Made by a program: the position numbers and the translations under genes. The notes under the pieces were generated by a model that did not search any database, was not told the DNA's origin, and saw nothing but the letters and a program-made list of their open reading frames with translations. Positions 42,925 through 51,658 of a stretch of DNA of 64,000 bases are shown in pieces (the first letter of the stretch is position 1; each line of letters begins with the position of its first letter). Origin of the DNA: Lutibacter sp. A80 (GTDB taxonomy: Bacteria; Bacteroidota; Bacteroidia; Flavobacteriales; Flavobacteriaceae); NCBI RefSeq assembly GCF_022429645.1, contig NZ_CP092480.1:1842501-1906500 (forward strand), read 5' to 3'.

Positions 42925-44187
42925 TTAAACTAAAAATTGAAACAATTGTTGATTTTCATTTAAATATTCACTTAAAAATCCTTTTTGTTCCATTCTTTCC
43001 ATTAAAGGTTTAAAATCACTTTTAGATTTTAATTCTATACCAACTACTGCCGGCCCTTTATCTCTATTATTCTTTTTGGTATATTCAAAATATGCAATAT
43101 CATCATTAGGACCTAAAACGTCAACTACAAATTCCTTTAAAGCTCCTGCTCTTTGTGGAAAACGGATAATAAAATAATGCTTTAAACCTTGATATAACAA
43201 GGCGCGCTCTTTCATTTCTTCCATTCGGGTAATATCATTATTACCTCCACTTACAATACAAACAACTGTTTTACCCTTAATTTGTTCTTTTTGTTTTTCT
43301 AAAGCTGCAATAGATAACGCTCCCGCTGGTTCTACCACCAAAGCATTTTCATTATACACCTTTAAAATAGTTTCACAGATTAAACCTTCGCAAATTGTGT
43401 CTGTTCCATTTAATAAACCTTTACAAAACTCAAACGTAAGTTCTCCCATACGTTTTACAGCAGCTCCATCAACAAATTTTTCTATTTCGCTTAAGGTGGT
43501 ATTCTCTCCTTTTTCTAATGAAGTTGTTAAAGATGGTGCTCCTTTTGGTTCTACACCAATTAACTTTGTTGTTGGACTTAAGGTTTTAAATACACTTCCA
43601 ACACCAGATGCTAGACCACCACCACCAACAGGCATATATAAATAATCTATCTGTGTATCTATATCATTTAGAATTTCTAAACCAATAGTTCCTTGTCCGG
43701 CAATTACATCTAAATCGTCAAACGGATGCACAAAAGTGCTATTATGAAGCTTACAAAATTCTGACGCAGCTTTTTGACTATCATCAAAGCTATCTCCAAT
43801 TAGTTTAATATCAACAAAACTACCTCCAAACATAGTTACCTGTTGAATTTTTTGAGGCGGTGTTGTAACTGGCATAAAAACCGTACCGTGTACTTTTAAC
43901 TTTTTACAAGCAAAAGCAACACCTTGTGCATGGTTACCTGCACTAGCACAAACAATTCCGTTTTTTAACTCATTATCAGATAAACCTTGAATTTTATTAT
44001 AAGCACCTCTAATTTTATAAGAACGAACTACTTGTAGATCTTCTCTTTTAAAATAAATATTGGCATTATAATATTCTGAAAAGTTTTTCATAAACACTAA
44101 AGGAGTTGCATGTACAACTCCTTTAATGCTCTGCTGAGCTTTATATATTTCTTCTAATGAAATACTGTTTTTAATACTTTCACTCAA
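42925..44187 (-). CDS. ilvA: Threonine ammonia-lyase (biosynthetic threonine deaminase)
   Basis: Makes 2-oxobutanoate from threonine, the entry step to isoleucine. The PLP lysine is Lys58 in RSYKIRGAYN and the glycine-rich cofactor loop is PVGGGGLASGVGSVF (about 181-195). At 420 aa there is room for a single C-terminal ACT-like regulatory domain (about 335-420), as in the short IlvA class; E. coli IlvA has two (514 aa). Its place at the end of the ilv operon supports a biosynthetic rather than catabolic role. It is 3 bp after ilvC. Confidence 0.95.
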   Translation of the reverse strand: MSESIKNSISLEEIYKAQQSIKGVVHATPLVFMKNFSEYYNANIYFKREDLQVVRSYKIRGAYNKIQGLSDNELKNGIVCASAGNHAQGVAFACKKLKVHGTVFMPVTTPPQKIQQVTMFGGSFVDIKLIGDSFDDSQKAASEFCKLHNSTFVHPFDDLDVIAGQGTIGLEILNDIDTQIDYLYMPVGGGGLASGVGSVFKTLSPTTKLIGVEPKGAPSLTTSLEKGENTTLSEIEKFVDGAAVKRMGELTFEFCKGLLNGTDTICEGLICETILKVYNENALVVEPAGALSIAALEKQKEQIKGKTVVCIVSGGNNDITRMEEMKERALLYQGLKHYFIIRFPQRAGALKEFVVDVLGPNDDIAYFEYTKKNNRDKGPAVVGIELKSKSDFKPLMERMEQKGFLSEYLNENQQLFQFLV

Positions 44188-44190
44188 AAT

Positions 44191-45663
44191 TTAAACTATT
44201 TTAATCATAGCAGTCATAGATGCTCTTAAAAATTCTCCAACTTCTTCAACTGGATGGTTTCTAATAACCGAATTTACCTCGATCAACTCTTTATTATCAA
44301 CTGCTGTTTCCCCACCGTTAAATGGTTTTCCAATAAAATTACTTGGTGTTTTATTAATATAATCAGCTATTAAAGGTTTACAAGCGTGATCAAACAAATA
44401 ACATCCATATTCTGCTGTATCAGAAATTACACGGTTCATTTCAAATAATTTTTTACGTGCAATTGTGTTTGCAATTAATGGTGTTTCGTGTAAAGATTCG
44501 TAATAAGCTGATGCATCAATAATACCCGATTCTGTCATTGCCTCAAAAGCTAATTCTACTCCTGCTTTTACAATAGCAACCATTAACACTCCATTATCAA
44601 AATATTCTTGTTCAGAAATTTCTACATCTGAAGCTGGTGTTTTTTCGAATGCTGTTTCTCCAGTTTCAGCTCTCCAAGTTAATAAGTTAACATCGTCATT
44701 TGCCCAATCTTCCATCATTGTTTTAGAAAAATGACCACTCATAATATCATCCATATGTTTTTGGAATAATGGACGCATAATATCTTTCAATTCTTCTGAA
44801 GCATTAAATGCAGCAATTTTTGCTGGATTTGACAAACGATCCATCATATTGGTAATTCCACCATGTTTTAAAGCTTCTGTAATTGTTTCCCAACCATATT
44901 GAATTAATTTTGAAGCGTAACCAGCATCAACACCTTCAGTAATCATTTTATCGAAACATAAAATAGAACCTGTTTGTAACAATCCACAAAGAATTGTTTG
45001 CTCACCCATTAAATCTGATTTCACCTCAGCAACAAATGAAGATTCTAACACACCTGCTGTATGTCCTCCTGTTCCAACAGCATAAGCTTTTGCATAATCC
45101 CAACCTTTTCCTTCAGGATCGTTTTCTGGATGCACAGCAATTAAAGTTGGTACTCCAAAACCTCTTTTAAACTCTTCTCTTACTTCAGAACCAGGTGATT
45201 TAGGTGCCACCATTATTACCGTAATATCTTTACGAATTTGCATTCCTTCCTCAACAATATTAAATCCGTGAGAATAAGATAATGCAGCTCCTTTTTTCAT
45301 TAAAGGCATTACTGCAGATACTACTGCGGTATGTTGCTTATCTGGCGTTAAGTTAATTAACAAATCTGCTGTAGGAATCATTTCTTCATAGGTTCCAACT
45401 GCAAAATTGTTTTCACTTGCATTTAAGAACGATTGCCTTTTTTCAGCAATTGCAGCTGGTCTTAAAGTATAAGAAACATCTAAACCAGAATCTCTCATAT
45501 TTAAACCTTGGTTTAAACCTTGGGCTCCACAACCTACTATTACTATTTTTTTACCTTTTAAAGCCGCTACACCTTCACTAAATTCTGTAGGATCCATAAA
45601 TCTACATCTTCCTAACTGATCTAATTTATCTCTTAATGAAAGTGTGTTAAAATAATTTGCCAT
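44191..45663 (-). CDS. ilvC: Ketol-acid reductoisomerase, class II
   Basis: NADPH-dependent isomerisation and reduction of acetolactate and acetohydroxybutyrate. The Rossmann loop is in [20 protein letters not shown] in part (about 36-55), followed by SYTLRP (65-70), and [14 protein letters not shown] lies near 151-164. The 490-aa length with two C-terminal knotted domains identifies the long class II form found in E. coli and many Bacteroidota; most bacteria have the 330-aa class I. It is the fourth gene of the operon, 72 bp after ilvN. Confidence 0.97.
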
Positions 45664-45735: not shown

Positions 45736-46257
45736 CTAATTAATTTCTGCTAATAATTGAGATATTTCCATTTTTGGTCGTGTAATTGCAATACGTCCTG
45801 AACGAACAAATTGTAACAAGCCATAAGGTTTTAATTTCCTATACATTTTGTCAATATTTTCTTTTGTTCCGGAAGCTTCAATAACGAAAAAACTTTCAGT
45901 TATTGTAAGTATATGCGCTCTTCTAAATTTAAATTTCTTCTGAAGTTTCTCATCATTTAAATGTTCTGTTGAAATTTTAAACAACGCTGTCTCATTATAA
46001 ATAATTTCATCTTGTGTGTGATAGAAGGCACGTATTACTTCAATTTGTTTTTCTAATTGTCCAGCAACTTTTCTAGCTAATACTTCAGATATGTTTACTA
46101 CAAATGTAAATCTGTGCACATGTTCTATCTCCGATTTTGAAACAGACATACTCTCGATATTAATATGTCGTTTTAAAAATATTGCCGAAAGGCGATTTAA
46201 TATTCCTACGTTATTTTCAGTATATACTGAAAATGTAAAATTTTTAATTACTTCCAT
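45736..46257 (-). CDS. ilvN: Acetolactate synthase small (regulatory) subunit
   Basis: Regulatory partner of IlvB that normally confers valine feedback inhibition. An N-terminal ACT domain (FTFSVYTENNVGILNRLSAI in 8-27, then the RHINIESMSVS segment) is followed by a C-terminal ACT-like domain. The length of 173 aa is intermediate (E. coli IlvH 163, IlvN 96). It starts 1 bp after ilvB ends, so it is co-translated with the catalytic subunit. The symbol could equally be ilvH. Confidence 0.94.
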   Translation of the reverse strand: MEVIKNFTFSVYTENNVGILNRLSAIFLKRHINIESMSVSKSEIEHVHRFTFVVNISEVLARKVAGQLEKQIEVIRAFYHTQDEIIYNETALFKISTEHLNDEKLQKKFKFRRAHILTITESFFVIEASGTKENIDKMYRKLKPYGLLQFVRSGRIAITRPKMEISQLLAEIN

Positions 46258-46258
46258 T

Positions 46259-47992
46259 TTAACTTAATCTTATATCTGAAACACTTGCTCCTGTTGGTAT
46301 CATAGGAAAAACATTATCCTCTTGCTCAATAATAACCTCTAAAAAATAAGCTTCTTTTGAAGCCATCATTGTTTTAATTGCTTCTGCTAAATCCTCACGT
46401 TTTGAAACTCTTTGCGCTTCAATATCATATGCTCCAGCTAATTTTACAAAATCTGGACTTACCATTTCTGTAGAGGCATAACGTTTATCAAAAAATAATT
46501 CTTGCCATTGGCGTACCATTCCTAAATAGCTATTATTTAAAACCACAATTTTAACAGCAGCTTTTGTTTGCAGAATAGTTCCTAATTCATTACAAGTCAT
46601 TTGGTAACCACCATCACCAATAATAGCAACTACTTCTCTATTTGGCACTCCCATTTTTGCTCCAATTGAAGCTGGTAAAGCAAATCCCATAGTTCCTAAA
46701 CCTCCTGAGGTTACGTTACTTCTTGTTTTAATAAAATCGGCATAACGACAGGCAAACATTTGATGTTGCCCTACATCTGAAACTATTACCGCATCTCCAT
46801 TGGTTTCTTTATTAATACCTCCTAAAACTTCACCCATTGTTAAACCTGGTTTTGTTGGATTTAGTTGATCATTAATAACTTGATCTTTTTCAATTTGAAG
46901 TAACTTATCAAATTCTTGCATCCATATTTTATGATCCGATTTCTTAACATACTGCATAATTTCTACTAATGTCTGCTTAACTGTTCCTAATACAGCTACG
47001 TCAGTTTCTACATTTTTATCAACTTCTGCAGGATCAATTTCAAAATGAATCACTTTTGCTTGTTTTGCATAGGTTTGTAAATTCCCTGTAACCCTATCAT
47101 CAAAACGCATTCCAATAGCAATTAAAACATCACATGAATTAGTTAAAACATTTGGTGCATAATTTCCGTGCATCCCCACCATTCCAACATTTAACGGGTG
47201 ACTTGTTTCTAAAGCAGAAAGCCCTAAAACTGTTGATGCAGAAGGAATATCTGTTTTTTCTATAAAGCTTTTAAATTCTTCTTCAGCACCTCCAATAATT
47301 ACTCCTTGTCCCCAAACTATTAATGGTTTTTTTGCCGCATTAATTAGCTCAGCAGCTTCTTTTATTTTTTCAATATCAAATTTAGGAATAGCTCTATAAC
47401 TTCTTATTTTTTCACATTTTTGATACTCAAAATCTAATTCACCAAACTGTGCGTCTTTTGTAATATCAATTAATACTGGTCCTGGACGTCCAGACTTAGC
47501 AATATAAAATGCTTTAGCCATAACTTCAGGTATTTCTGAAGCCTTAGTAATTTGATAATTCCATTTTGTTACTGGTGTAGAAATACCAATAATATCTGTT
47601 TCTTGAAAAGCATCAGACCCTAATAAATGTGAAGCTACTTGCCCTGTAATACAGACTAAAGGTGTAGAATCTATTTGCGCATCTGCAATACCTGTTACTA
47701 AATTTGTTGCACCTGGACCTGAAGTTGCAAATACAACTCCTGGTTTACCTGTAACACGTGCAAAACCTTGAGCTGCATGAATTGCTCCTTGCTCATGACG
47801 TGTTAGAACATGGTGAAATTTTTCACGATATTTATATATCTCATCATATACTGGCATAATGGCCCCTCCTGGGTAGCCATAAGCTAAATCGGCACCTTCT
47901 TCTAATAAACATTTTAGAACTGCCTCAGCACCTGATACTTTAACAGCTGCTGTTGTTTTTTTTTCTTGAACCTGTTTACTCAATGTCTCCAT
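46259..47992 (-). CDS. ilvB: Acetolactate synthase large (catalytic) subunit
   Basis: Thiamine-diphosphate and FAD enzyme making acetolactate or 2-aceto-2-hydroxybutyrate. The N-terminal YGYPGGAIMPVYDEI (about 39-53) and HEQGAIHAAQGFAR with the catalytic Glu are present. The ThDP/Mg motif starts at GDGGYQMTCNELGT (about 464) and ends at NNSYLGMVRQWQ. The length of 577 aa is normal. It follows ilvD by 4 bp. Confidence 0.97.
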   Translation of the reverse strand: METLSKQVQEKKTTAAVKVSGAEAVLKCLLEEGADLAYGYPGGAIMPVYDEIYKYREKFHHVLTRHEQGAIHAAQGFARVTGKPGVVFATSGPGATNLVTGIADAQIDSTPLVCITGQVASHLLGSDAFQETDIIGISTPVTKWNYQITKASEIPEVMAKAFYIAKSGRPGPVLIDITKDAQFGELDFEYQKCEKIRSYRAIPKFDIEKIKEAAELINAAKKPLIVWGQGVIIGGAEEEFKSFIEKTDIPSASTVLGLSALETSHPLNVGMVGMHGNYAPNVLTNSCDVLIAIGMRFDDRVTGNLQTYAKQAKVIHFEIDPAEVDKNVETDVAVLGTVKQTLVEIMQYVKKSDHKIWMQEFDKLLQIEKDQVINDQLNPTKPGLTMGEVLGGINKETNGDAVIVSDVGQHQMFACRYADFIKTRSNVTSGGLGTMGFALPASIGAKMGVPNREVVAIIGDGGYQMTCNELGTILQTKAAVKIVVLNNSYLGMVRQWQELFFDKRYASTEMVSPDFVKLAGAYDIEAQRVSKREDLAEAIKTMMASKEAYFLEVIIEQEDNVFPMIPTGASVSDIRLS

Positions 47993-47996
47993 AGGT

Positions 47997-49679
47997 TTAA
48001 AATTTATCCGTTACACACCCTTCAGAAGCAGATGAAACGGTTTTTGCATATTTATATAATATTCCTTTTGTATGTTTTAATTCTGGTGCTTTCCATTGTT
48101 CTTTTCTTTTGACCAATTCAGCATCGGAAATTTTCATATTAATTGTTTTATTAACTGCATCTATTACAATTATATCTCCATCTTTTACCAATCCAATTCC
48201 TCCTCCACTTTGGGCTTCAGGTGTAATATGTCCCACTACAAATCCGTGTGTTCCTCCTGAAAAGCGTCCATCCGTTATTAAAGCAACTGATTTTCCTAAA
48301 CCTGCTCCCATAATCATAGAAGTTGGCTTTAACATTTCTGGCATTCCTGGTCCTCCTTTTGGACCTACATATCTAATTACTACAACATCTCCTCTAGATA
48401 CTTTTCCAGCTCCAATACCATCATTTGCTTCTTGCTCACTATTAAAAACGACTGCTTTCCCTTCAAATAAATTCCCTTCTTTTCCACTTATTTTAGCAAC
48501 CGAACCTTCTGCTGCTAGATTTCCATATAGAATTTGAAGATTCCCTGAAGATTTTAAAGCTTTATCTTTTGGATGAATTACCTGTTGATCGTCTTCAAAA
48601 CTTAAAGGTTTTACATCTGCTAAATTTTCAGCTAGAGTTTTTCCAGTAACAGTCATACAATCTCCATGTAAATAACCTTCTTCTAACAAATATTTCATTA
48701 CAGCTGGCGTACCTCCTACTCCATGAACATCTTCCATTAGATACTCTCCACTTGGTTTTAAATCTGCAATTAAAGGTGTTTTATCACTTACACGCTGAAA
48801 ATCTTCTAATGTAAATTCTATTCCTGCAGCATGTGCAATAGCTAAATAATGCAATACAGCATTGGTTGACCCTCCTAAAGCATTTACCAAAGCAACTGCA
48901 TTTTCTAACGATTTTTTAGTAATTATATCTAAAGGCTTTAAATCTAATTCCAATAAGTTTTTAATTGCAGCAGCAATACGTGCACTTTCATCTTGTTTAT
49001 AAGGATTTTCTGCTGGAATAGAAGAATTATAAGGTAATGCAAACCCCAAAGCCTCTATAGAAGATGCCATTGTATTTGCGGTATACATACCTCCACAAGC
49101 ACCTGCTCCTGGAATTGCGTTTTTTATAATTTCTTTATATTCTTCTTCTGATATTTCTCCAGCTATTTTTTGACCTAAAGCTTCAAAGGCAGAAACAATA
49201 TTTAATTTTTTCCCATTGTATCTTCCTGAAGCAATAGTACCTCCATACACCATTAAAGATGGACGGTTTAAACGCAACATTGCAATAATTGCTCCTGGCA
49301 TATTTTTATCACAACCTACAACAGTCACTAAACCATCGTAACTTTGTGCATTCATTACTATCTCAATAGAATCCGCAATAACATCTCTAGATGGTAAAGA
49401 ATAATTCATTCCTGAAGTTCCCATAGAAATACCATCACTTACTCCAATAGTATTAAATACTAAACCAACTTCGTTGTTTTTATTAACAGCCTCTTTAATT
49501 TTACCAGCTAAACCATTTAAGTGCATATTACACGGATTGCCATCATAACCAGTACTTGCAATACCAATCTGTGGTTTTTTCATATCATCTTCAGATAACC
49601 CCACGCCATATAACATTGCTTGAGCTGCTGGTTGAGTAGCATCTTGAGTAACTCTTTTACTATATTTATTTAACTGCAT
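47997..49679 (-). CDS. ilvD: Dihydroxy-acid dehydratase
   Basis: Iron-sulphur dehydratase producing the 2-oxo acids of valine and isoleucine. Cluster cysteines are in [12 protein letters not shown] (about 120-131) and [12 protein letters not shown] (about 192-203), and the C-terminal SDGRF-like [16 protein letters not shown] is present. The length of 560 aa is normal. It is the first full gene of ilvD-ilvB-ilvN-ilvC-ilvA. Upstream lie 280 bp of leader, then a strong hairpin and an Ile/Val-rich leader ORF, so the operon is probably controlled by attenuation. Confidence 0.97.
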
Positions 49680-49958
49680 TTAATTTAATATTTCTTTATA
49701 TATTTTGAATTATCCTTAAAAATAATTCATTTTTATTGTTTACTTTTTAATAGGACACAAATTTACTTTAGTCATTTATTTTATCATTATTCCATTTACT
49801 TTTTTTACAATAGTCACAACAAGATATTTTACACTAAAATACTGTATAACAATATATTAACTCTTATTTTTTTACAATGATTATTTTATAAAAAAACCTT
49901 TACCAATATAAACAACCAAAAATCTCCAATTAATCAAATAAATTATTTATAACTAAAA
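49680..49958 (-). other. Non-coding leader between the ilv attenuator and ilvD
   Basis: An A+T-rich stretch without a credible gene. It contains a second exact -7 element, TAAATTTG at 49765-49758 on the minus strand. The following four bases (TGTC) are also the same as at the arg promoter, giving a 12-nt identity. This may be an attenuation-independent promoter 79 bp before ilvD, though chance matches are easy in such sequence. The only short ORF after it is four codons long. Confidence 0.4.
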
Positions 49959-49989
49959 GAGCCTTCCTAAAAAAAATTTAGGAAGGCTC
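49955..49989 (-). terminator. Attenuator terminator upstream of the ilv operon
   Basis: A perfect 13-bp stem GAGCCTTCCTAAA/TTTAGGAAGGCTC (49959-49971 with 49977-49989, 5-nt loop). In the minus direction it is followed by UUUU. There is no T-run after it on the plus strand, so it works on minus transcripts. It stands 34 nt past the stop codon of the Ile/Val-rich leader ORF and 280 nt before ilvD. By position it could also just end the transcript of the 514-aa gene. Confidence 0.8.
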
Positions 49990-50023
49990 AATAATTCTAT
50001 ATTAATTATAATAACAATCCTAT

Positions 50024-50083
50024 CTACTTGTGAATAATCACAGAGACAATAATAGAAATGATATTAATAAGTATGTTTGTCAT
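50024..50083 (-). CDS. Isoleucine/valine-rich leader peptide of the ilv operon (19 aa)
   Basis: ATG at 50083-50081, TAG at 50026-50024; product MTNILINIISIIVSVIIHK. Eleven of 19 residues are branched-chain (8 Ile, 2 Val, 1 Leu), matching the products of the operon that follows. A strong terminator hairpin begins 34 nt after its stop. A near-match -7 element CATATTTG (50101-50094, one mismatch) ends 10 nt before the ATG. It starts 30 nt after the stop of the 514-aa gene, so read-through from that gene could also feed it. The layout of leader, terminator and biosynthetic operon is that of classical ilv attenuators. A small hydrophobic toxin is an alternative I consider less likely. Confidence 0.65.
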   Translation of the reverse strand: MTNILINIISIIVSVIIHK

Positions 50084-50113
50084 AATTGAACTACAAATAT
50101 GTAACATTTTTTA

Positions 50114-51658
50114 TTACTTTAAAAGTTTTTTTTCTTTTTGTTGAATAATTAATTCTACGGGTTCATTTTTAATTTTACTTTCTAACCAAGATAAAACATC
50201 TAAATATAAAAATGCACGTCTTTCAAAAGGATGGTTTTCATATTTTTTTAATTCGGCATGCAGTTTAATAAATTCTTTCTTTAAATCTTGTGGATAAATA
50301 TTACTTAGATTCTTTAAAAATTCTATCATTTTCTTTTGAACCTCGTGTAAATCGTTCATTTTCAACAAAAACTTATATGTTGAAACAATTAATTTATCTA
50401 TGTTATAATCTATTCCTGCTTCATAATGCGCAACTAAATTTAAAACTCGAGAAAAACACAATAAGTCTTCACGCATTTTTAGATCTTTATTTTGAATAAT
50501 TTTCTCAAGATAAAAAATACACGTTTTATTATCTCCAGCTCCAAAATACATACAAGCAATTCTATAATAAAAAACCATTATATGATGCGCATCAATATGC
50601 CCTTCATATTTCTTAATTTCTTCAACTAGGTTTTTAACAAAATCTAAGCCATTTGTAAAGTTACCTTCTAAAAAATAAAGGCTCAGCATATTTTGATTGT
50701 AATATAAAAACGCCAAAGTTTTAGTGTTTTCATTTAAAACAATTACATTATTTTTAATATCAAAATCGAGGTTCTCTAATACTTTTTTAAACTTTTTTCG
50801 ATATTTAATAAGGTATAAAGCTTCTGCTAAGTAGTTAACTCCTTTTAAATAAAAAACAGGATTTTGTTTTTTCATTTCAGGTTTCTCATCAAACAAATCA
50901 ACCCATTTTTGAGCATATTTAAAACTCGAAACAAAATCTTGTTTTATTAAACTATGCCATAAATAAGCTTTATATAAGAAAAGTTTTTCTGTAAAACCTA
51001 GTTCTGATAATTCGTATTTCGGTATTCTTTTTTTAAAATACTCCGTTAATGCTTTAGAATCTATATTGTCTTTAGCATAGCCTGTTCGCAACATTAAACT
51101 ATACAATTGCAACGACAGGTTAGACAACTTACTAATTCTAATATTTCTTAAGCTTAATTCTTTTGCTTGTATTGTAAGTTCATCAGCCCTATTACTCATA
51201 CTTCTTGTAATATACTGGGACTCGATTATTTTCTCAAACTCAACAATTTCATATGCTAAATTATTTTCGCCATTATTAATTGCAACATCTTTTGCTTTAT
51301 CTAATATTTTAAGACTTTGCTTATAAAGACCTTTATTATATAAAATTGTAGCAAAATCGAATTGCTCTCTAATTTGAGTCCGTATATTTTGGTGTACAGG
51401 GTTAAATCTTAAACTCACTAAAATCTGACGATATAAATGTGCCTTTGTATTAGAAATTTGTTGCTTTTTTATGTTTGTTTTTTCTAAAATAAGTTTATCA
51501 TCATAGGCACTCACTTTATCTAACAGATTAAATAAAGAAATAAAATTTGCATCAGCATTTCCACCTAATCTACCTACATATAATTTAAATTGTCGCTTTT
51601 CAGATTTTGAAAGTGACTTAATTAATGTAAAAAGCGAATCTTTTTGTTCAATAGCCAT
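50114..51658 (-). CDS. Conserved hypothetical protein, all-helical TPR-like repeats
   Basis: I do not recognise a named family. The 514 aa are almost wholly helical and rich in Lys, Leu and Tyr. There is no signal peptide or membrane segment. Several stretches look like TPR or related helical pairs, for instance around FATILYNKGLYKQSLKILDKA (split, about 101-121) and MYFGAGDNKTCIFYLEKII (about 373-391). This suggests a cytoplasmic scaffold. It lies between the divergent leuA and the ilv operon on the ilv strand, 30 bp before the ilv leader ORF, and may share transcripts with ilv. A role in branched-chain metabolism or its control is possible, but nothing in the sequence shows it. Confidence 0.7.
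   Translation of the reverse strand: MAIEQKDSLFTLIKSLSKSEKRQFKLYVGRLGGNADANFISLFNLLDKVSAYDDKLILEKTNIKKQQISNTKAHLYRQILVSLRFNPVHQNIRTQIREQFDFATILYNKGLYKQSLKILDKAKDVAINNGENNLAYEIVEFEKIIESQYITRSMSNRADELTIQAKELSLRNIRISKLSNLSLQLYSLMLRTGYAKDNIDSKALTEYFKKRIPKYELSELGFTEKLFLYKAYLWHSLIKQDFVSSFKYAQKWVDLFDEKPEMKKQNPVFYLKGVNYLAEALYLIKYRKKFKKVLENLDFDIKNNVIVLNENTKTLAFLYYNQNMLSLYFLEGNFTNGLDFVKNLVEEIKKYEGHIDAHHIMVFYYRIACMYFGAGDNKTCIFYLEKIIQNKDLKMREDLLCFSRVLNLVAHYEAGIDYNIDKLIVSTYKFLLKMNDLHEVQKKMIEFLKNLSNIYPQDLKKEFIKLHAELKKYENHPFERRAFLYLDVLSWLESKIKNEPVELIIQQKEKKLLK

Follow-up and report, generated by a model that had tools for sequence, protein, structure and literature searches.

A probable ribosome-mediated attenuator before the ilvDBNCA operon of Lutibacter sp. 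A80 and serial attenuator-like units in related Flavobacteriaceae

The DNA upstream of ilvD in Lutibacter sp. A80 very probably specifies a ribosome-mediated transcription attenuator of the ilvDBNCA operon. The open reading frame (ORF), the terminator, the complementarity, the spacing and the conservation that point to it are established from the sequence. The window (the whole stretch of 64,000 nucleotides analysed here) belongs to a genome of one contig of 3.93 Mb, and its ilvD shares 95% identity with the ilvD of L. litoralis. The genes 3' of the attenuator serve isoleucine and valine synthesis:

47997..49679, minus strand: ilvD (TIGR00110 of NCBIfam, above cut-off)
46259..47992, minus strand: ilvB, acetolactate synthase large subunit (TIGR00118, above cut-off)
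45736..46257, minus strand: ilvN, acetolactate synthase small subunit (TIGR00119, above cut-off)
44191..45663, minus strand: ilvC (NF003557 and TIGR00465, both above cut-off)
42925..44187, minus strand: ilvA, threonine ammonia-lyase (NF006390 and TIGR02079, both above cut-off)

Anatomy and conservation of the leader element

The preliminary description of this DNA had named an Ile/Val-rich leader of 19 aa, a perfect 13-bp hairpin and ilvD-B-N-C-A on the same strand, and all of these are present in the window. The unit is compact and consists of a leader, a hairpin, a partner segment and a terminator:

50101-50094, minus strand: CATATTTG, a -7-box-like element 10 nt 5' of the leader ATG; candidate first promoter
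50083-50024, minus strand: leader ORF MTNILINIISIIVSVIIHK, 19 aa with 8 Ile, 2 Val and 1 Leu; stop codon UAG at 50026-50024
50029..50042, minus strand: P1 hairpin UGUGA-UUAU-UCACA, spanning the final Val-Ile-Ile codons of the leader
50022-50018, minus strand: putative antiterminator segment UAGGA, just 3' of the leader stop codon and complementary to UCCUA at 49983-49979
49989-49959, minus strand: intrinsic terminator of unit 1, a perfect 13-bp stem (49989-49977 / 49971-49959) with a 5-nt loop, then UUUU
49983-49979, minus strand: UCCUA in the terminator 5' arm, partner of UAGGA at 50022-50018

Ile or Val makes up 10 of the 19 leader residues, and the core NIISIxVSVII is kept among relatives. 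The spacer between the leader ORF and the terminator stem is 34 nt, and the U-tract behind the stem has four U only. The fold of the 169-nt leader RNA has a z score of −5.4 against dinucleotide shuffles, none of 200 being equally stable. The leader frame stays open up to an earlier ATG at 50107, which would give 27 aa; the 19-aa start is the better one, because most relatives keep it and because CATATTTG falls inside the extension. Of the 48 unit-1 leaders, 29 have TATTTG no more than 22 nt 5' of their ATG, vs. a mean of 0.8 and a maximum of 3 after shuffling; the box of the window differs at its first letter from the sigma-A consensus TAnnTTTG. The next gene upstream (50114-51658, minus strand) has a BT2802-family model as its sole match, far below the cut-off.

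One scan supplied 80 ilvD loci whose upstream regions were read, and an Ile/Val-rich leader with a terminator was assigned by hand in 47 of them, giving 48 unit-1 sequences with the window. A segment at the stop codon that is complementary to the terminator 5' arm recurs with the leader and terminator in these 47 loci. A covariance model of unit 1, R1, was built from 33 of the 48 sequences. It matches 34 of 38 genomes of the genus (29/29 near-complete ones) and 98 of 299 genomes of the family (89/249 near-complete ones), with no match in the other 201. Among 57 best matches that were fetched, 55 have ilvD within 1.5 kb, and the remaining two (L092 and L120) are cut by contig ends.

An automatic detector was also used, which requires a terminator and an Ile/Leu/Val-rich ORF ending at most 60 nt before it. 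On block-shuffled versions of 109 upstream regions of ilvD or ilvE it found one unit in 1/109 and two units in 0/109. Since the unit is conserved in relatives and the shuffled controls are nearly empty, its origin by chance is unlikely.

The preliminary description had counted it against an attenuator if close relatives kept the hairpin and lacked the ORF. Such cases occur in the distant family members L034 and L030, where the terminator is kept and a leader was searched for but not found; within the genus, leader and terminator stay together wherever both could be assigned. L038 has, upstream of ilvD, a remnant resembling the Val-Ile-Ile-Ser-Gln end of the leader, with no terminator found, and looks like another decayed attenuator.

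Pairing, spacing and codon use in the proposed switch

The start site, translation, stalling, termination and amino-acid dependence are predicted from these features as follows. Transcription would begin just 5' of the leader ORF. When charged Ile- or Val-tRNA is short, the ribosome would stall at the final Val/Ile codons with its front edge short of UAGGA, which could then pair with UCCUA in the nascent RNA; the terminator could not close, and RNA polymerase would continue into ilvD. When both tRNAs are charged, a ribosome at the stop codon would cover UAGGA, the 13-bp terminator would close, and the transcript would end near 49955.

The partner sequences change among relatives: UUAGGA/UCCUAA in most Lutibacter, UAGGGA/UUCCCUA in a Confluentibacter, and AAGGGA/UCCCUU in L036. 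Pairing of the segment with its own terminator arm exceeds the shuffled mean in 57 of 58 units, with p ≤ 0.05 in 32 of the 58. The sole exception is L042, in which a poor, degenerate leader stands together with a poor partner segment. For the window by itself, the antiterminator helix has 5 bp and −5.6 kcal/mol, a value matched by 12% of shuffles (p 0.12). The unit-1 alignment contains five pairs of P1 and the partner segment that vary on both sides, and 10 of 500 shuffles score as high. With the partners slid by +1 column there are also five two-sided pairs, but 43% of the cells are then paired vs. 86% in the true register. Covariation in unit 1 is thus modest.

The last Ile/Val codon pair and the first paired base are separated by 14 nt (median of 106 class I units) or 15 nt (median of 33 class II units), the script having excluded codons less than 9 nt from the first paired base, which cuts the low tail. 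In the window the distance is 13 nt. At four loci (the window, L001, L004 and L009) the stop codon comes a few nt earlier relative to the segment, and even there the codon-to-segment spacing is 13–16 nt. A ribosome has its front edge at about this distance from the codon in its A site. The spacing fits the front edge of a stalled ribosome: a stall would free the segment, and finishing the leader would cover it.

When the leader codons are resampled synonymously, P1 exceeds the mean stability of the resamplings in 44 of 48 unit-1 leaders, with p ≤ 0.05 in 32 of the 48 (p 0.05 in the window); in unit 2 only 1/10 reaches p ≤ 0.05 in such resampling. P1 therefore appears to be under selection at the synonymous level in unit 1; that it serves in pausing is no more than a guess.

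The valine codon GTC accounts for 18 of 1375 Val codons (1.3%) among the 48 ORFs of 200 aa or more that were called mechanically in the window, and for 7.3% of the 1969 Val codons counted for a set of ilvD genes. In the leaders its share of Val codons is 38.8% (of 129) for unit 1 and 76.2% (of 21) for unit 2, and in further leaders of the family it is 34.8% of 158 in class I and 62.3% of 53 in class II; the leaders are related by descent, so formal p-values overstate this enrichment. Base pairing in P1 could account for some of the GTC in unit 1, hardly for that in unit 2. We infer that GTC is likely favoured since a poorly read codon sharpens the sensitivity of the sensor. Two Val tRNA genes, both with the anticodon TAC, are among 36 tRNA matches, a list which is incomplete because it holds no Ile or Ala tRNA; a single tRNA may read GTC.

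As far as a comparison of sequences can tell, partner pairing, spacing and GTC enrichment favour the initial proposal of an attenuator with Ile/Val specificity. The competition between UAGGA and UCCUA, which had been only a guess, gains support from the relatives.

Serial units in relatives and the gap before ilvD

A second, different attenuator lies between unit 1 and ilvD in 10 of the 80 loci (L001-L006, L009-L011 and L080). Its terminator is mostly CCUGUAUC or CCUGCAUC, and its partner segment resembles UUGAUGCA or UUGAUACA, with the stop codon UGA inside the segment. Both classes of unit are rich in Ile and Val codons. A model of unit 2, R2, adjoins R1 in 12 of 38 genomes of the genus (coordinates compared by eye) and matches 51 of 299 genomes of the family; neighbouring unit matches were seen by eye in 22/299, a lower bound. 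The models missed the second units of L149 and L154 as well as L276, so the tandem counts based on the models are to be read as at least these values. The genome of the window gave no R2 match, and two intact units are accordingly not found in the window.

The 109 distinct ilvD/ilvE upstream regions given to the detector were mostly chosen by model or ilvD matches. Of these, 26 carry at least two units; 10 of the 26 belong to the genus, and the other 16 are spread over 14 further genera. Among the ilvD regions, 20 have none, 61 one and 18 two, two of the latter being judged spurious and dropped (L135 and L138, in which the first ORF is spurious); among the ilvE regions, nine have two units and one has three. 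Spurious single units were dropped by eye at L265 and L277, and the second leader of L175 is doubtful. When six regions with neighbouring model matches were re-read by the detector, five had two or three units and L281 had one. In 20 genomes sampled at intervals from the listed ilvD places, a genuine unit was present in five and a tandem in one of these, and the arrays are therefore a minority feature. Three attenuator-like units in series were observed in L141, before ilvE, and in L280, at the ilv-type matches of G129. A class II unit alone is kept at some loci, for example L165, L171 and L181.

The tandem arrangement does not form one clean clade, and this simple history was rejected: an ilvD tree with 40 rows requires seven changes to account for its 10 tandem rows, and well-supported branches force at least four of these changes. 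Repeated gains or losses of the tandem follow from this.

Each segment can be compared with its own and with the foreign terminator arm. The unit-2 segment pairs with its own arm at a mean of −8.2 kcal/mol vs. −1.4 with the unit-1 arm at the 10 genus loci, and at −10.6 vs. −3.2 at the 16 others; for the unit-1 segment the values are −7.3 vs. −5.7 and −8.4 vs. −6.4, respectively. The own arm is preferred by unit 2 in 25 of 26 loci (10/10 in the genus and 15/16 elsewhere) and by unit 1 in 19 of 26 (7/10 and 12/16). The preference is strong in unit 2 and weaker in unit 1, and the insulation is therefore asymmetric. In the unit-2 alignment none of eight pairs has changed on both sides, and 110 of 500 shuffles reach its covariation score; because such covariation is absent, the case for unit 2 rests on own versus cross pairing. 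UGA is the stop codon of 26 of 34 class II leaders vs. 22 of 108 other leaders, an excess that is expected if the stop codon belongs to the pairing code.

These data leave roughly even odds that the Flavobacteriaceae inherited a series circuit of two to three branched-chain amino acid attenuators before ilvD or ilvE. In such a circuit, three-part codes for each class (stop-codon segment, terminator 5' arm and 3' arm, of a CCUUCC type and a CCUGUAUC type) would limit cross-pairing, and the need to pass all gates would make the array a sensor of a steep AND type, in which the very rare GTC would be a sensing codon; one or the other unit would then have been shed in individual lineages, as probably in that of the window. 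We do not put it higher because the insulation is asymmetric and the covariation of unit 2 is missing.

The distance to ilvD bears on what the window may have lost. In Lutibacter with a single unit, the terminator ends about 200–215 nt before ilvD. In tandem Lutibacter, the unit-2 terminator takes this position and the unit-1 terminator ends 326–357 nt before ilvD. In the window, the unit-1 terminator ends about 279 nt before ilvD, and the intervening DNA contains the following features:

49886..49958, minus strand: probable wreck of unit 2, a stretch of 73 nt behind the intact unit 1, recognised by its position, by relatives and by a left-over terminator end
49899-49888, minus strand: AGGTTTTTTTAT, beside the usual flank ATAATCATTGTAAAA, resembling the end of a unit-2 terminator without its 5' arm
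49680-49885, minus strand: conserved region, the 205 nt before ilvD
49872..49877, minus strand: conserved TTGTAA box, 198 nt before ilvD
49805..49810, minus strand: second conserved TTGTAA box, 131 nt before ilvD
49758..49765, minus strand: TAAATTTG, a sigma-A-like -7 box 86 nt before ilvD; candidate second promoter

The window thus probably keeps unit 1 and a decayed unit 2. L001, which stands closest to it on the ilvD tree, has the tandem (this pairing is weakly supported, 92/50), and L110, with an ilvD 95% identical, has by eye the same decayed unit-2 state. The part of the window that would belong to unit 2 only is not significantly similar to unit 2 of L001, as 32 of 500 shuffles score as high. 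The preliminary description had called a gap of about 280 nt between terminator and ilvD unusual; the length is confirmed, and it would be explained by about 73 nt of a decayed second attenuator together with about 205 nt of a conserved, promoter-like region.

In the latter region, TTGTAA(A/T) occurs at least once in 38/38 loci and at least twice in 28/38, usually at 198 and 131 nt before ilvD. TAnnTTTG is present in 36/38 loci, vs. a mean of 2.5 after shuffling, and stands 83–87 nt before ilvD in 35 of them and 72 nt before it in one; this motif is given as the sigma-A -7 box of Flavobacterium psychrophilum in the available part of PMC9723704. The region 49680-49885 is probably a second, perhaps regulated, promoter. 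The operon may accordingly have a start that bypasses the attenuator, with ilvD also transcribed from it, and a promoter-like box between the terminator and ilvD could reduce the attenuator to a minor control.

Alternative explanations, known systems and the same design at other genes

The conserved TAnnTTTG 86 nt before ilvD would also suit a simpler explanation, in which the hairpin serves only to terminate the upstream gene 50114-51658 at its 3' end, the ORF has arisen by chance and the downstream promoter-like region drives ilvD. That gene is on the same strand and ends 125 nt before the stem. However, the Ile/Val leader, the partner segment and the spacing are conserved along with the terminator, the unit is duplicated together with its ORF, similar units precede ilvE in 10 loci, and leaders for other amino acids precede fitting genes; we consider a mere 3' terminator improbable. 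Still less probable is that the leader ORF acts by translation coupling or reinitiation and not by termination. Leader ORFs near genes have been proposed to raise translation by reinitiation, but the proposal, in the available part of PMC4833913, concerns distances of about 10–16 nt, whereas the leader stop lies 344 nt from ilvD with the terminator between.

A long structured leader before amino-acid genes could also be a riboswitch or T-box that senses the amino acid or the tRNA directly, the ORF being incidental. At the curated gathering score, Rfam 15 gave one tRNA gene only in the window and nothing in six relatives; two further matches in the stretch are sub-threshold chance matches. The codon-level and spacing signals, too, point to translation, and we find direct sensing the hardest of the three to believe. 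Ribosome-mediated attenuation remains the preferred reading.

Attenuation of this kind is classical for amino-acid operons, with trp, his, ilvGMEDA and ilvBN of E. coli as examples. Textbooks cover leader-peptide attenuation, which is known for the most part from Proteobacteria and Actinobacteria. Like the attenuators of E. coli, the element in the window has a leader peptide rich in the product amino acids, a terminator before the first gene and a competing pairing that a stalled ribosome would free. Unlike them, it occurs in another phylum, is compact, has an antiterminator segment that overlaps or abuts the leader stop, has no Rfam match, and is serial in relatives. The layout of enterobacterial ilv attenuators, with which it had been equated at the outset, is thus matched in kind; kinship with these attenuators is not borne out, given the compact anatomy and the missing Rfam match.

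The closest parallel to the tandem relatives is mgtCBR of Salmonella, where one leader RNA has two leader ORFs, each with its own attenuator, a case that its authors call singular (PMC3641672, in the part available). There, mgtM and mgtP sense ATP and proline, whereas the units of Flavobacteriaceae are both Ile/Val-rich, stand before ilvD or ilvE and number up to three. It is the only tandem leader-ORF case that the literature search found. For F. psychrophilum, of the same family as the window, strong clues are reported that leader-peptide attenuators precede operons of amino-acid biosynthesis; the available part of the paper (PMC9723704) names no ilv unit, partner segment or tandem. A broad survey of attenuators describes terminators that precede genes with leader peptides and, for the rimP leader, a second terminator in tandem, and its available text is without Bacteroid, Flavobacteri or ilv (PMC2965389). 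No report of ilv attenuators in Flavobacteriaceae or of tandem branched-chain amino acid attenuator arrays was found in a search that covered subscription journals thinly, and a 2010 survey (Lopatovskaya and co-workers, cited in PMC4833913) may hold cases from Bacteroidetes. The element in the window would be a further case of a classical mechanism, and the array in relatives would be a new arrangement.

Translation initiation in the host group departs from Shine-Dalgarno use (PMC9723704, available part). The leader-peptide attenuator design appears to recur in this group before ilvD, ilvE, ilvA, hisG, thrA-like and GatA-family genes, partly in series. If the arrays work as their sequences suggest, they would allow asking whether the effects of attenuators in a stack are multiplied or added, how RNA switches avoid interference after duplication, and why a nearly unused codon serves as sensor.

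An inspection of 20 weaker or paired model matches gave eight Asn leaders (GatA-family gene), one Thr leader and further leaders upstream of ilvE in four cases, of ilvD in three and of ilvA in one; the remaining three seem to be unrelated terminators (L153, L155 and L157). At L142 to L146, L152, L156 and L159, an Asn-rich leader (NNNNNNFNNPN-like) with a similar terminator is followed by a small ORF and a gene for a GatA-family amidotransferase/amidase; a possible reading is an Asn-tRNA attenuator. The GatA-family gene of L142, the one tested, is below the GatA cut-off. L150 has a Thr-rich leader, MKHIITNTTTTTTGTS, before a gene for a bifunctional aspartate kinase/homoserine dehydrogenase (thrA-like). 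In the genome of the window itself, hisG (L225) is preceded by a His leader ORF, MRTIQLHHHLNTCNQAS, in which UCAAGCG before the stop copies, by eye, part of the terminator 3' arm, and this leader seems by eye to have the same design as the ilv unit.
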